Source: Bacteroidales bacterium Bact_14
GTDB taxonomy: Bacteria; Bacteroidota; Bacteroidia; Bacteroidales; UBA932
Direction: 5' to 3'
Assembly: GCA_001602865.1 (NCBI GenBank)
Contig: LUZF01000002.1
Coordinates: 1-46,139, forward strand
Length of the DNA: 46,139 bases
Shown: positions 9,621-16,143 of the stretch, piece by piece
Numbering within the stretch: the stretch's first letter is position 1
Layout of the letters: each line of letters begins with the position of its first letter
Notes under the pieces: generated by a model
Databases searched by the model: none
The model's input: only the letters and a program-made list of their open reading frames with translations
What the model was told of the DNA's origin: nothing
Program-made: the position numbers and the translations under genes

Positions 9621-10568
9621 CTATTCGGAGGGTTTCTTTGCGGAGAGTTTGATCGGGTCGAACCCACGGCCGTAGACGCCCGTGACGGAGGCGACGGACA
9701 GGAAGGCGTCGGGGTCGATGGCCTTGACGAGACGGAGGAGCAGGTTCAGGTCGGTCTTGCGCGTGACGACCATCACGATCTCCGCCGGCTGCTTGGTAAA
9801 CCAGCCGCGGCCGTCGATGATGGTCACGCCGCGGTGGAGTTCCGTGACGATCGCATCCGCAATTTCCGCGTATTTCTTGGAATTGATGAAGACCTGGACG
9901 GACTGGCGCGAGCCGGAAAGGTACAGGTCGAGGACGGTGCTGCAGATCGTGATGAGGATCAGACCGTAGACCACCGTCGTGATCTTCTCCGTAAACGGGA
10001 GAAGCACTCCCTCCGCGGTATAGGAAGGCACCAGCAGGGAGGAAAGGATGATGACGACGTCGATCCAGAGGATCATCCGGCCCGGAGAGACGTTCCGGTA
10101 CTTGTTGACCACCAGCGCGATGATGTCCGTGCCGCCGGTGCTGCCCCCCTGGGAAATCGTCATACCGATGCCGGCGCCCGCCATGATGCCGCCCATAATG
10201 GTGCACATCAGCTTGCCGTTGGCGATGGCCAGGGTCTGGATGATGTCCGCGGGGATCGCATTCTGGAGCACGTTGAGCCCGACGGAGGCGAGGATGATGG
10301 CGAATACCGACTTTACGCCGAAGCTCTTGCCCAGGGTGAAGAGGGCGATGATGAGCAGGACGACGTTGAGCGCGAAGTAGGTATAGCCCATCTTGATGAG
10401 GCCGCCGGTGGCGTACTGGAGGATGGAGGAGATACCCGTGACGCCGCCGCCGACGAGGTTGTTCGGCACCAGGAAGACGGTCCAGCCGAGGACGTACATC
10501 GCGATGCCCAGCGTGATCAGGAGGTACTCCTTGACGGCTGTGAGGATGGTTTTCTGTTTATTCGCCAT
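9621..10568 (-). CDS. YitT family membrane protein (DUF161 + DUF2179), second copy
   Basis: 315 residues. The N-terminal about 200 residues carry five to six hydrophobic segments with the family's repeated GGxxG motifs (VPNNLVGGGVTGISSILQY, ISQGGSTGGTDIIALVVN). The C-terminal soluble domain is DUF2179 (RGVTIIDGRGWFTKQPAEIV). It is an inner-membrane protein of unknown transported substrate. It overlaps the preceding paralogue by 11 bases and is the last gene of the operon before a terminator. It resembles its neighbour in order and motifs, so the pair arose by tandem duplication; divergence is considerable, suggesting an old event or a heterodimer. Confidence 0.9.
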   Translation of the reverse strand: MANKQKTILTAVKEYLLITLGIAMYVLGWTVFLVPNNLVGGGVTGISSILQYATGGLIKMGYTYFALNVVLLIIALFTLGKSFGVKSVFAIILASVGLNVLQNAIPADIIQTLAIANGKLMCTIMGGIMAGAGIGMTISQGGSTGGTDIIALVVNKYRNVSPGRMILWIDVVIILSSLLVPSYTAEGVLLPFTEKITTVVYGLILITICSTVLDLYLSGSRQSVQVFINSKKYAEIADAIVTELHRGVTIIDGRGWFTKQPAEIVMVVTRKTDLNLLLRLVKAIDPDAFLSVASVTGVYGRGFDPIKLSAKKPSE

Positions 10569-11499
10569 TGTCGTTTTCTTTTGCCTTGTTTTTTCTGTAC
10601 AGCCCGACCTTCATCTCCTCAAAGCCTTCGCCGAACACGCTCTTGGCGCTTGTCACGGAGATGAAAGCCTTGTTGTCCAGGGACTTGATCACCTTGGAGA
10701 TCTCGGGGAGCTCGCGCTTCCGGAGCAGGACGAGCAGGACCTGCTTGTCCTGCTTGGTAAACCAGCCGACCGCCTTGAGGGCGGTCACGCCGCGGTCCAT
10801 CCGCTTGTTGATGTAGTCCGCGATCTGCGGGTATTTTTCGGAGAAGATCAGGAGCTGGACCGTAGACTGGCGGCCCAGCATCACGTAATCCAGCGTCGTC
10901 GCACTGACCATCATCATGATGAAACCGTAGATGACGTCCGCGAAGACCTTGCCCGGGAGGAGGAGCAGCGCGGCGATGATGACCATATCCATATAGATGT
11001 ACATCTGCCCGATGGAGACGGGCCAGTACTTGTTCACGACGAAGGCGACGATGTCGCTGCCGCCGGTGCTGCCGCCGTAGATGAAGATGATGGCCAGGCC
11101 CACGCCTTCCATCAGACCGCCGACCACGGGGAGGACCAGCTTCTCCGGGATGTACAGGAAATTACCTTCCACGGAGTGGAGGAAATCAAACTGCGGGAGC
11201 ACCTCGAAGAGGATGGTCGTCAGGGCGATGCAGTAGAGCGTCTTGATGCCGAAACGTGCGCCGAAGACGATCAGGGCCACGACGAGCAGGAAGACATTGA
11301 CCACGCCGTAAGACAGCGAGACCTGGATGGCGCCGTTCGTCGCATATTGGATGATGGTGCAGAGACCGATCAGGCCGCCGCTGGTGAAGTTGTTCGGAAT
11401 GATGAAACACTCCCACGCCAGGCAGAAGATGAGGCAGCCGAACGACATCGCCAGGTATTCCCAGATGCGGAAAAGGATCTTTCGGGTCTTCGGGGTCAT
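10558..11499 (-). CDS. YitT family membrane protein (DUF161 + DUF2179), first copy
   Basis: 313 residues with the same layout as the next gene: membrane part with IPNNFTSGGLIGLCTIIQY and IYGGSTGGSDIVAFVVN, then DUF2179 with RGVTALKAVGWFTKQDKQV. It starts three bases after the leuS stop, so translation is probably coupled. The function of YitT proteins is not established; they are predicted inner-membrane permeases. Asp residues often replace GAC by GAT before ATG here (for example the Tyr-Met-Asp-Met stretch near 10990), part of a CATG-avoidance pattern. Confidence 0.9.
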   Translation of the reverse strand: MTPKTRKILFRIWEYLAMSFGCLIFCLAWECFIIPNNFTSGGLIGLCTIIQYATNGAIQVSLSYGVVNVFLLVVALIVFGARFGIKTLYCIALTTILFEVLPQFDFLHSVEGNFLYIPEKLVLPVVGGLMEGVGLAIIFIYGGSTGGSDIVAFVVNKYWPVSIGQMYIYMDMVIIAALLLLPGKVFADVIYGFIMMMVSATTLDYVMLGRQSTVQLLIFSEKYPQIADYINKRMDRGVTALKAVGWFTKQDKQVLLVLLRKRELPEISKVIKSLDNKAFISVTSAKSVFGEGFEEMKVGLYRKNKAKENDNGE

Positions 11500-11502
11500 A
11501 CG

Positions 11503-14232
11503 CTATTTCAGGACGATGTTGACAATCTTACCGGGGACGACGATGACCTTGACGATGGTCTGGTCGCCCACGTATTTGGCCGTCTGGTCCAGCGGGCGCA
11601 CGGCGGCTTCGACGCCGTCCTTGTCCAGGCTCTTCGGCAGGTCCACGGTGAAGCGGGTCTTGCCGTTGAAGGAGACGGCGTAGGTGCAGCTGTCCTCGAC
11701 CGTGTAGCTTTCGACGTACTCCGGGAAGGACGCGTCCGCGACGCTGGTCTCGTGGCCGAGGCGGTGCCATAGCTCCTCGCAGATGTGCGGGGCGAAGGGG
11801 CTGAGGAGGATGACCATCGGCTCCAGGATCGCCCGCTTGTTGCACTTCAGCGCGCCGAGCTCGTTGGCGGCGATCATAAAGGCGCTGACGGTCGTGTTGA
11901 AGGAGAAGGCTTCGATGTCCTCCTGCTCCTTGCCGATGAGCTTGTGGAGGGCCTTCAGTTCCTCGCGGGTCGGCTCACCGTCGCTGACGAGGCACGTGTC
12001 GCCGTCGTAGAAGAAGCGCCAGAAGCGCTTCAGGAAGCGGTGGACGCCGTCGATGCCCTTGGTGTCCCAGGGCTTGCTCTGCTCGAGCGGGCCGAGGAAC
12101 ATCTCGTAGAGACGGAGCGTATCGGCGCCGTAAGTATCGCAGATGTCGTCCGGGTTGACGACGTTGTACATACTCTTGCTCATCTTTTCGACGGCCCAGC
12201 CGCAGATGTACTCCCCATCCTCGAGGATGAAATCCGCGTCGGCGAACTCCGGCCGCCAGGCCTTGAAGCCGGCCAGGTCGAGCCTGTCATTGCGCACCAG
12301 GCTGATGTCCACGTGGATTTCCGTCGTCTGGTAACCGTCCTTGAGGCCGGCGGAGACGAAGGTGTTCGTCCCGACGACGCGGTAGACGAAGCTCGAACGG
12401 CCCTGGATCATGCCCTGGTTGATGAGCTTGCGGAAAGGCTCGTCCTCGCAGACGTATCCGCGGTCGAAGAGGAACTTGTTCCAGAAGCGGGAATAGATGA
12501 GGTGGCCGGTCGCGTGCTCCGTGCCGCCGATGTACAGGTCCACGCTGCGCCAGTATTCGTCCGCCTCGCGGCTCACCAGGGCGTTGTCGTTGTGGGGATC
12601 CATATAGCGCAGGTAGTAGGCGCTGGAGCCGGCGAAGCCCGGCATCGTACTCTTCTCCAGCGGCCAGCCCTCGTAGGTCCAGTCCTTTGCGCGGGCGAGC
12701 GGCGGTTCGCCGTTCTCGGCCGGCTTGAACTCGGAGATCTCCGGCAGGGTCAGCGGGAGTTTCTCCAGCGGAAGCGCCGTCGGGATGCCATCCTTGTAAT
12801 ACACCGGGAAGGGCTCGCCCCAGTAGCGCTGGCGCGAGAAGATCGCGTCGCGCAGACGGTAGTTCGTCTTGCGGCGGCCGAGGCCCTTCGCCTCGACATA
12901 ATCCTTGGCGGTCTCGATCGCGACCTTCACTTCCAGCCCGTTCAGGAAGCCGGAGTTGCACATCTTTCCTTCCTTCGCGTCGAAACTTTCCTCGCTGACG
13001 TCACACCCCTCGATGATAGGGACGATCGGCAGGTTGAATTTCTTCGCAAACGCGTAGTCGCGGCTGTCGTGGGCCGGGACGGCCATAATGGCACCCGTGC
13101 CGTAGCCGGCGAGGACATATTCGGAAATCCAGATGGGAATCTTCTCACCCGTGACGGGATTGGTTCCGTAAGAACCTGTAAACACGCCTGTTACTGTTTT
13201 CGTTTCGGCGATGCGCTCGCGCTCGGTCTTCTTCTTGACATAGGTCAGGTACTCGTCCACGGCGGCCCGCTGGGCGGGCACGGTCAGGGCGTCGACCAGC
13301 GCGCTCTCCGGCGCCAGGACCATAAAGGTCACGCCGTAGATCGTGTCCACGCGGGTCGTGAAGACCGTCACCGGGAGCTGCTGCTCCCCGCAGAGGAACT
13401 CCAGTTCCGTGCCTTCCGACTTGCCGATCCAGTTGCGCTGCATCTCCTTCAGGGAGTCCGTCCAGTCGAGCTTATCCAGGCCCGCGAGCAGCCGCTCCGC
13501 ATAGGCGGAAACGCGCAGCTGCCACTGCGTCATCTTCTTCTGCTCCACGGGATAGCCGCCGCGCACGGAGAGGCCGTCCTTGACCTCGTCGTTCGCGAGC
13601 ACGGTCCCGAGCTGCGGGCACCAGTTCACGGCGGTCTCGCCCTGGTAGGCGATTCTCCAGCGCATCAGGAGGTCCGATTTCTCCTTCTCGGAGGCGGCGT
13701 TCCAGCGCTCCGGGGTCACATCCCCGTACCCGGTCGTCTCCAGCCGGGCGACGAGCTCGCGGATCGGGCGCGCCTTGTCGGCGTCGGGATCATACCAGCT
13801 GTCGAACATCTCGAGGAACGCCCACTGCGTCCATTTATAATAGGCGGGGTCGCAGGTGCGGACCTCGCGGTCCCAGTCATAGGAAAAGCCGATGCGGTCG
13901 AGCTGGCTGCGGTAGCGGGCGATGTTGCGGGTCGTCGTCACCTCCGGGTGCTGGCCCGTCTGGATGGCGTACTGCTCCGCGGGAAGGCCGAAAGAGTCGT
14001 ACCCCATCGGATGGAGCACATTGTACCCCTGGAGCCGCTTGTACCGGGAGAAGATGTCGCTGGCGATGTAGCCCAGCGGATGACCGACGTGCAGGCCCGC
14101 ACCCGAAGGATACGGGAACATATCCAGTACATAAAACTTCTTCCGGGAAGGGTCCTCCTTCGCCTGGAATGTCTTGTTCTCAGCCCACCAGGACTGCCAT
14201 TTCTGCTCGATTGACTTGAAATCGTACTCCAT
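11503..14232 (-). CDS. leuS: leucyl-tRNA synthetase
   Basis: 909 residues from ATG 14232 ([16 protein letters not shown]), the usual bacterial LeuRS start; a 13-residue extension is unlikely as it would overlap the previous gene. The class I HIGH motif is [16 protein letters not shown] and the second signature is [14 protein letters not shown]. The inserted editing domain (CP1) is present at about residues 225-420, including [15 protein letters not shown] and [18 protein letters not shown], whose Asp discriminates misacylated tRNA. A tRNA-binding anticodon domain and a small C-terminal domain follow. It charges tRNA-Leu in the cytoplasm. It is third in a five-gene operon, 10 bases after the M28-like gene. 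Confidence 0.98.
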
Positions 14233-14242
14233 GCTTCTAATT

Positions 14243-15565
14243 CTATTTTTTCTCCAGCCGGAATTCGACATACAGCGAAATCTCGGCTTTCACTTTCTTG
14301 CCCAGCACCGACCCGGCCTTCCAGTCGGGGGATGCGTTGATGACCCGCAAGGCCTCGTCGTCCAGCAGCGGATCCACGCCGCGCAGCACCTTGGCCTCGG
14401 TCACCTTGCCCCGCTCGTCGATGATGAAATCGACGAGCACGCGGCCCTGGATGCCCTGGCGCACCGCCGCATCCGGATACCGCAGGTATTTGTAGACCCA
14501 TCGCTCGAGGAAGACCTTCGGGTCCGCACTGCCGAGGAAGGTCGGCCGGCGGTCGCAGTCGTAGTAAGGGACGACGTTGTCTTCCGTGGAAGAGCGCTTT
14601 TTCAGCTCGTCCGCCGCGTTGAAGATGGGTTTCGGTCCGTTGATGAGCGAGACGGCGTAATTGTAGATGTATTCGAGTTCACGTTCCATATCCTCGTACT
14701 GGAGGATGGACTCCGTGTCCCGTTCGGTGTTGTGTTCCGGATAGCGGCCGCTGGTGAAATAAACCGACGGGATGCCGGCCGCGTAGAAGGCACGGTGGTC
14801 GGAGGGATAGGGCTCCTCCGCCGTCAGGGTCGGCTGCACCGGCTGCAGGGTCCCCGCCAGCGCGGTCACGATCGCGTTCATATCCGGATTCGAGGACGTG
14901 TAGGCGTAAAAACCGGACGTCCCGGTCCCCAGCATATCGAGGTTGATCATCGCATCGACGTTCGCGGTATCCGAGAACGAGCGGTTCAGGAAGTACCAGG
15001 CGCCGGCATTGTTCAGCGACGAGCCGCCGAAGCCGACCAGCAGCACGGAGCGGCGCAGCAGGCGGAAATTGGTCCGCAGCATCCGGCCCAGCTCGATCAG
15101 CATCGCCAGCCCGGAGGCATTTCCGTTCGCGCCGGGATAGATGCGCTCGTGCTTCACGCCGTCGATGGTAATCTCGCCCGGCGCGAGGTTGTCCAGGCGC
15201 GCGCCGATGACGATGTAATGGTCTTTCAGTTCCTTGTCATAGCCCGGGATGAAACCGATGACATTCCGGGAAGTAAGGGTATCCCCGCTCTCCTGGCGGA
15301 CGCCGAAAAGGTCGCCCTCCCGGGCGGAGACCAGGTCGATGCCCTGCTTCTCGAAGGCCTCGCCCAGGTACACGGCCGCTTCCTTCTCCCCGTCGGTCCC
15401 GGCGCCGCGGCCCTCCAGCACGCGGGCGGAAAGGAAACCGATGTGGCGCCGCATCGCCGAGACAGTCTCGCTGTCCGAGAGCGTCGAATACGGAGCACGG
15501 AACTGGGCGGAGGCGGTGCCTGCCCAGAGCAACAGAAGGATACAGAGGCCGGGGATTCTTTTCAT
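14243..15565 (-). CDS. M28-fold protein with degenerate metal site, fused to a TonB C-terminal domain
   Basis: 440 residues with signal peptide (cleaved near TASAQ). Residues about 30-310 follow the M28 aminopeptidase fold, but the zinc-ligand positions are mostly changed. The usual GAHxDH is GARLDN (Arg123 for His); the usual GADDNASG is GANGNASG (Asn147 for Asp); the catalytic EE pair is replaced by FGGSS around 179-183. Only NLDML (Asp210) and SDHRAF (His257) remain. Residues about 345-440 are a TonB/energy-transducer-like domain ([31 protein letters not shown]). It is therefore probably a periplasmic binding or scaffold protein rather than an active peptidase. It lies between a SPOR lipoprotein and leuS with 3- and 10-base gaps. 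Confidence 0.85.
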
Positions 15566-15568
15566 ACG

Positions 15569-16129
15569 CTAATAGTTTACCAGAATCCAGGAGTCCGCAG
15601 GAACGGTCCCGCCGCCGACGAGGGTCTTGTACGAGGCCACAATCTCATCCACACCGTCGGAAGGACAGGCCCCGACCGCAGTCCGGCGGGCCGAGAACGG
15701 AATCAGCTCGGATTCATACCCCTGGGAGAGCAATTTTGCTGCCAGACTTTCGGCATTCTCCCGCTCCGCGAACGAACCGGTGATGATATAATAATTGTGG
15801 GAGAGCGCGGCGGGCAGCTTCAGCCCCAGCGTGGATACGGAATTCACGAGGCAGCCGGCGGCCCGCAGGGCCGTGAACGACGTGGCGTCCGGTTTCGGGG
15901 CCGCCGCGACCGCTTCCTGCGCCTCGTGCGCTTCCTCCTCCGCCGCTTCGCGCGCCTCTTCCGCCGCCATCACCCGCGCCTGGATCGCATCCCGTTTCGC
16001 GGCAAGGTCCGCGGACGTCGGACGCCCGGCCACGCGGCGCATGAAATCACATCCGCCGAGCATCAGGGAGCCCAGAATCAAAACGCTGACAGACAGACTG
16101 CCAAGCCACTTTTTTGTCACTTTTGCCAT
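15569..16129 (-). CDS. SPOR-like cell-envelope lipoprotein
   Basis: 186 residues. The signal peptide ends in a lipobox (LMLGGC, Cys27). An Ala/Glu-rich segment (about 47-78) looks like a coiled coil. Residues about 110-150 (HNYYIITGSFAERENAESLA) match the SPOR fold, which binds denuded peptidoglycan at division sites. ATG 16129 is chosen because the upstream alternative (16138) falls inside the -7 promoter box. It is first in the operon with the M28-like protein, leuS and the YitT pair, and is divergent from phoH. SPOR assignment is by pattern; the domain is short and divergent. Confidence 0.78.
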   Translation of the reverse strand: MAKVTKKWLGSLSVSVLILGSLMLGGCDFMRRVAGRPTSADLAAKRDAIQARVMAAEEAREAAEEEAHEAQEAVAAAPKPDATSFTALRAAGCLVNSVSTLGLKLPAALSHNYYIITGSFAERENAESLAAKLLSQGYESELIPFSARRTAVGACPSDGVDEIVASYKTLVGGGTVPADSWILVNY

Positions 16130-16135
16130 AACTCG

Positions 16136-16143
16136 CAAATTTA
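16136..16143 (-). promoter_or_regulatory. -7 promoter box TAAATTTG for the SPOR-leuS-yitT operon
   Basis: Exact minus-strand match, seven bases before ATG 16129, implying a leaderless or very short leader. It is back to back with the phoH promoter 27 bases away. Confidence 0.68.

Follow-up and report, generated by a model that had tools for sequence, protein, structure and literature searches.

Described M28 aminopeptidases include those of Vibrio/Aeromonas proteolytica (AAP, 1amp), Streptomyces griseus (1cp7), and Aneurinibacillus (2ek8). The M28 fold is also known in non-peptidase use, in transferrin receptor 1 and nicalin. In other peptidase families, an aminopeptidase fold is reused as a binding platform by the eukaryotic proteins Tma108 (M1) and Ebp1 (M24): Tma108 holds nascent chains with its substrate pocket, while Ebp1 keeps two of the five metal residues (PMC11266112). 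TonB energy transducers, for which we follow the published definitions of the TonB domains and the SHLS motif, have a C-terminal domain (CTD) that binds by beta-strand addition (PMC12204202). Pseudopeptidases and TonB_C-bearing proteins are already known kinds. In the open-licence papers searched, nothing describes the two combined in a single orthologous gene whose activity a bacterial family lost many times independently: no paper joins M28 and TonB C-terminal domains, none treats Cryptobacteroides together with peptidase and TonB, the family is not mentioned, and M28 is absent from a 2024 review of inactive metallopeptidases.

Domain layout and predicted structure

The gene analyzed here is located on contig LUZF01000002.1 of Bact_14, in a stretch of 46,139 nucleotides (the window). 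It encodes a protein with a signal peptide, an M28 aminopeptidase fold, a short linker, and an intact TonB_C domain:

14243..15565, minus strand: fusion gene (M28-TonB_C, 440 aa), probable pseudo-aminopeptidase
15506..15565, minus strand: signal peptide, residues 1-20, with predicted cleavage before Gln21
14669..15265, minus strand: M28 peptidase domain, residues 101-299 (Pfam PF04389, AlphaFold2, Foldseek)
14531..14629, minus strand: linker, residues 313-345, the least conserved part and not proline-rich
14255..14488, minus strand: TonB_C domain, residues 360-437 (PF03544 and TIGR01352, both above cut-off)

The original prediction had recognized an M28 fold followed by a TonB C-terminal domain, and both score above their Pfam cut-offs: Peptidase_M28 with 76.8 bits (cut-off 21.3; E 2.3e-21) and TonB_C with 61.7 bits (cut-off 24.6; E 9.5e-17). 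In NCBIfam, tonB_Cterm lies above its cut-off and no peptidase family does so for this protein. The N-terminus looks like a signal peptide that follows the Q-rule of Bacteroidetes, i.e., cleavage before Gln (PMC5837995). Gln21 is nearly invariant in the family alignment, and an AxA-Q-like pattern is present in 79 of the 98 sequences of the genus set, which comprises the sequences with the R-G-S pattern described below (some genomes being counted from both collections).

An AlphaFold2 model built from an alignment of 51 family members has a mean pLDDT of 91, with lower values near residues 321-330, within the linker. The top Foldseek matches of this model are the M28 aminopeptidases 2anp, 1tkf, 3b35, and 1amp (E about 1e-14 to 1e-15; TM-score by target 0.72-0.77). 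Vibrio/Aeromonas and Streptomyces aminopeptidases are among the matches, and glutaminyl cyclases and transferrin receptor follow at lower ranks. Both profile and fold thus place the protein in peptidase family M28. A profile from 51 relatives of the fusion also matches eukaryotic non-peptidase homologues such as transferrin receptor. Compared to 1amp, 1cp7, and 2ek8, the fusion shares the fold over the whole M28 domain and keeps D125, D210, the SDH motif, and D283, but five of the six metal/catalytic residues are replaced and a TonB_C domain is added at the C-terminus. It differs from transferrin receptor 1 and nicalin in being bacterial, predicted to be soluble, and combined with another domain, and its substitutions arose independently.

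Loss of the metal and catalytic residues

The ligands of active M28 enzymes are assigned after AAP. Six essential positions (123, 148, 182, 183, 210, and 279) were placed by alignment to 2ek8 and 1amp, by a profile alignment from 51 relatives, and by alignment to intact orthologues. At these positions the Bact_14 protein has R, G, S, S, D, and N, where active enzymes have H, D, E, E, D, and H. Five of the six essential residues are gone and only the ligand Asp210 remains:

15197..15199, minus strand: Arg123, replacing the first metal-ligand His (all 98 genus sequences have R, all 19 intact fusions have H)
15122..15124, minus strand: Gly148, replacing the bridging Asp (all 98 genus sequences have G, all 19 intact fusions have D)
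15017..15022, minus strand: Ser182-Ser183, replacing the general-base Glu and a ligand Glu (all 98 genus sequences have Ser at 182, whereas 183 varies)
14936..14938, minus strand: Asp210, the only metal ligand kept (conserved as Asp except in a few sequences of the genus)
14729..14731, minus strand: Asn279, replacing the last ligand His (aligned with 2ek8 and LapA; the genus has N, D, G, or other residues here)

An active M28 metallopeptidase has five ligands, at 123, 148, 183, 210, and 279, where this protein has R, G, S, D, and N, and a general-base Glu, where it has Ser182. The exchange of His for Arg123, the replacement of the Glu pair around 179-183 (at Ser182 and Ser183), and the retention of Asp210 had all been proposed from the sequence and agree with the alignments. 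Two other positions needed correction. The bridging Asp had been equated with Asn147, which is one residue off: it is the residue preceding the conserved Asn of PGADDNASG and corresponds to Gly148 in the alignments to 2ek8, 1amp, and the intact fusions. His257, listed earlier as a retained ligand, sits in the SDH motif, which is also present in active members, and is not a metal-ligand position. The counterpart of the last ligand His is Asn279, with YHTPND of 2ek8 aligned over HNTERD. Alignment to active M28 members thus bears out the loss of ligands and reveals a site more degraded than proposed. Replacement ligands from neighboring residues were considered and rejected, as neither His257 nor His278 is conserved across the genus.

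The fusion is widespread in the bacterial family of Bact_14 (family f1), with some match in 198 of 200 genomes and the full-length fusion in most of them; about ten genera show partial matches only. Among the matches listed, the full-length fusion is seen only in this family. For the order (about 240 additional genomes) and the phylum (396 genomes), the listed matches span one domain or the other but not both, with a single exception whose frame runs through four stops. The nearest named relatives include Candidatus Cryptobacteroides species. An annotation artefact was ruled out as the origin of the fusion, since full-length family members have a single open frame without internal stops.

All six residues are intact in nineteen fusions, which come from genera g5, g12, g14, g17, and g19; the model of one intact orthologue (L178) has 1amp as its best match. 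Intact and degenerate copies occupy the same place upstream of leuS and thus represent one orthologous gene. A quick tree (123 sequences, outside M28 enzymes as root, six site columns masked) gives 12 losses without regain, or nine when forks under 80 are collapsed. A more careful tree of 70 sequences, made with a mixture model, also gives 12 losses without regain, and 11 when forks under 95 are collapsed. If regain is allowed, at least seven (quick tree) and nine (mixture-model tree) changes are needed. These counts imply about 12 independent losses on the best trees and nine to 11 with weak forks collapsed, given a tentative deep branching of the family.

The site strings differ by lineage (NDKERR, HAGEDR, HAMEDR, QSGNNG, HDKEDH, RAGEDR, and others). 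The sister genus g18 (L101-L103) has HDSEDN or HNSEDN. In HDSEDN the general base and the last His are gone and the rest is present, and this form is plausibly a step towards the RGSxDN of the Bact_14 genus. In genus g17, three sequences (L106, L108, and L109) keep the five metal ligands and have Lys as general base; judged from its residues, this form is possibly metal-binding yet dead, and may be a useful control.

Every sequence of the Bact_14 genus set has Arg123, Gly148, and Ser182, whereas residues 183 and 279 vary freely. The genus also has Asn at 126, Asn at 147, and Tyr at 275, where the intact fusions have His, Asp, and His, respectively. The pocket is thus partly fixed in a new state and partly released, which is not the pattern of random decay. 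Sequencing or assembly error was rejected as the source of the lost residues, because identical residues occur in some ninety species-level genomes. By the NG86 method, with saturated pairs excluded, pairwise dN/dS of the M28 part ranges from 0.015 to 0.11 between degenerate copies and from 0.04 to 0.09 between intact ones, and the mean column entropy in the genus is 1.06 for the M28 part and 1.01 for TonB_C. With dN/dS as low as in intact homologues, the protein appears to be a maintained pseudoenzyme: as in a pseudopeptidase, the catalytic residues are lost, and the protein is conserved across species under purifying selection. We consider it very probable that the fusion protein is catalytically dead. 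A pseudo-peptidase had been the core of the original prediction, and the genus-wide invariant substitutions and the purifying selection strengthen it. Relatives that keep all ligands had been named as evidence to the contrary. They exist outside the genus only, as intact orthologous fusions in other genera, so the inactivity belongs to lineages and not to the fusion as such.

Deviating copies were also encountered. In a 1.5 Mb genome of the same genus, a 320-aa protein (L170) represents the M28 part alone, with TonB_C gone; its site has decayed further (S, S, S, R, A, D), it forms a long branch in the tree, and its gene still lies between the SPOR gene and leuS. Genome G045 contains two close degenerate copies (L173 and L175; NNGRNY) on different contigs, one of them apparently without the TonB part. 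This pair may reflect a strain mixture in the assembly.

Gene neighborhood and the TonB_C domain

The fusion gene is flanked by two genes on the same strand:

11503..14271, minus strand: leuS (leucyl-tRNA synthetase), directly downstream of the fusion; likely true start MEYDF at 14232
15569..16138, minus strand: SPOR-domain lipoprotein gene, directly upstream of the fusion (SPOR 24.9 bits, cut-off 21; lipobox LGGC)

Among the loci with enough flank, leuS directly follows the fusion in the same orientation in 96/96 genus loci and in 79/89 other family loci. The SPOR lipoprotein gene adjoins the fusion in 93 of the 98 genus loci, and across much of the family a SPOR-type lipoprotein is encoded upstream in the same orientation. 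The usual order in other genera is SPOR lipoprotein, gcvT, often a small VOC-like gene, the fusion, and leuS (gcvT and the VOC-like gene were named from their sequence, not by family search). The proposal that the fusion is encoded with the SPOR lipoprotein therefore applies to the genus, where the two are adjacent, and not to direct neighbors elsewhere, where gcvT usually stands between them; leuS is the constant neighbor. We downgraded SPOR adjacency as functional evidence because gcvT intervenes in other genera and the constant neighbors are housekeeping genes (leuS, gcvT), which makes the context uninformative on function. Two tandem YitT/DUF2179 membrane-protein genes, conserved in the genus, follow leuS (9621-11499).

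The TonB_C domain is complete and under selection. Bacteroidota TonB transducers share a complete TonB_C with the fusion, but the fusion lacks their N-terminal anchor, SHLS motif, and periplasm-spanning spacer. TonB domains I and II are absent, with no anchoring helix, motor motif, or proline-rich spacer. In place of an N-terminal anchor with the SxHxLxS motif there is a predicted signal peptide with a Q-rule site, no His precedes the predicted cleavage site in 89 of the 98 genus sequences, and the linker of the Bact_14 protein is about 50 residues long with 9% Pro. Elsewhere, the same genome encodes a dedicated TonB, anchored and with a PPPPPEAP spacer (L254, contig C15), to which the TonB_C of the fusion is 38% identical, and an ExbB/ExbD locus followed by a second anchored TonB-like protein (L253, contig C28). 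It also encodes a separate M28 protein with an intact-looking motif set (L250). Given the missing domains I and II and the separate TonB and ExbB/ExbD, force transduction by the fusion is unlikely, and the link to envelope energetics that had been suggested is not supported.

Proposed role and alternative explanations

The protein is probably a soluble periplasmic pseudo-aminopeptidase with a binding or adaptor role, which would bind with its altered pocket and dock via TonB_C. Precedents for such a role are Tma108, Ebp1, and M28 homologues like transferrin receptor. Its ancestor would have been an M28-TonB_C aminopeptidase in the same bacterial family that was still active and linked to leuS. 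On the way to the Bact_14 genus, the general-base Glu and the last His were probably lost first, a state still present in g18. Losses at the first His, bridging Asp, and ligand Glu would have followed, and the pocket would then have been fixed anew with Arg123, Asn126, Asn147, Gly148, Ser182, and Tyr275. Since it is fixed in a new state, the pocket most likely binds something without cutting it, plausibly the N-terminus of a peptide or exported protein. A Sec signal peptide cleaved before Gln would deliver the protein in soluble form to the periplasm. There, docking to a partner peptide is the most likely task of TonB_C, by beta-strand addition and without transmission of force, a candidate being the TonB-box region of an outer-membrane receptor; the domain could also be purely structural. 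A more specific version, a periplasmic peptide-reading pseudo-aminopeptidase that has the invariant Arg in place of zinc and holds the N-termini of exported proteins or peptides, whose TonB_C docks it to outer-membrane receptors, and whose family repeatedly switched from docked peptidase to docked peptide receptor, is speculative and quite doubtful as a whole.

The dead reading has to be weighed against a still-active hydrolase with a rearranged site, for example with a single metal on Asp210, His257, His278, and a nearby acidic residue. These three residues are all found in the Bact_14 protein, the structural neighbors include single-zinc glutaminyl cyclases of the same fold, and PDB entry 2anp, titled a functional E151H mutant, indicates that a hydrolase can stay active after loss of its general base, which counts against a dead protein. 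Across the genus, however, Tyr often takes the place of His278, Asn, Tyr, or Gln sometimes that of His257, and position 279 is variable, so that no alternative ligand set is conserved, and the invariant Arg at the first ligand position would repel a metal; residual activity of this kind is very unlikely. Slightly less credit still is due to neutral decay, in which the M28 half is a relic being lost and only the TonB_C half (or export) matters. In its favor, the family has repeatedly lost catalysis, and copies that consist of M28 alone or have decayed further, such as L170 (SSSRAD), occur in a few genomes. Against this, the M28 part shares its low dN/dS with intact homologues, its column entropy in the genus is near that of TonB_C, and L170 dropped TonB_C and kept M28, the reverse of what decay of the M28 half predicts.

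A TonB-like energy transducer or other motor-coupled protein is scarcely credible, even with TonB_C well above the curated cut-offs: a Q-rule signal peptide stands in place of the anchoring helix, the SHLS motif needed for motor binding would call for a His that most genus sequences lack before the Gln, the linker is short and not proline-rich, and a dedicated TonB and ExbB/ExbD are encoded elsewhere. A decoy or regulator, i.e., a dead protein that tunes an active M28 by competing for its substrates, or the dedicated TonB by competing for its receptors, is unlikely, though less so than these three. The same genome has both potential targets (L250 and L254), and pseudoenzymes are known to regulate active relatives (PMC11266112); on the other side, no link between the genes was observed and they lie on different contigs.

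The preferred reading, a soluble binding protein, would make the fusion a clear case of a TonB_C domain on a (predicted) soluble exported protein, and it raises the question of what such unanchored domains bind. One orthologous gene, usually beside leuS, is intact in some genera and apparently dead in others, with recognizable intermediates, and its about nine to 12 independent losses provide a controlled series for what replaces catalysis as an enzyme becomes a pseudoenzyme. This gut-type Bacteroidales gene is thus a natural experiment in the change from enzyme to non-enzyme.
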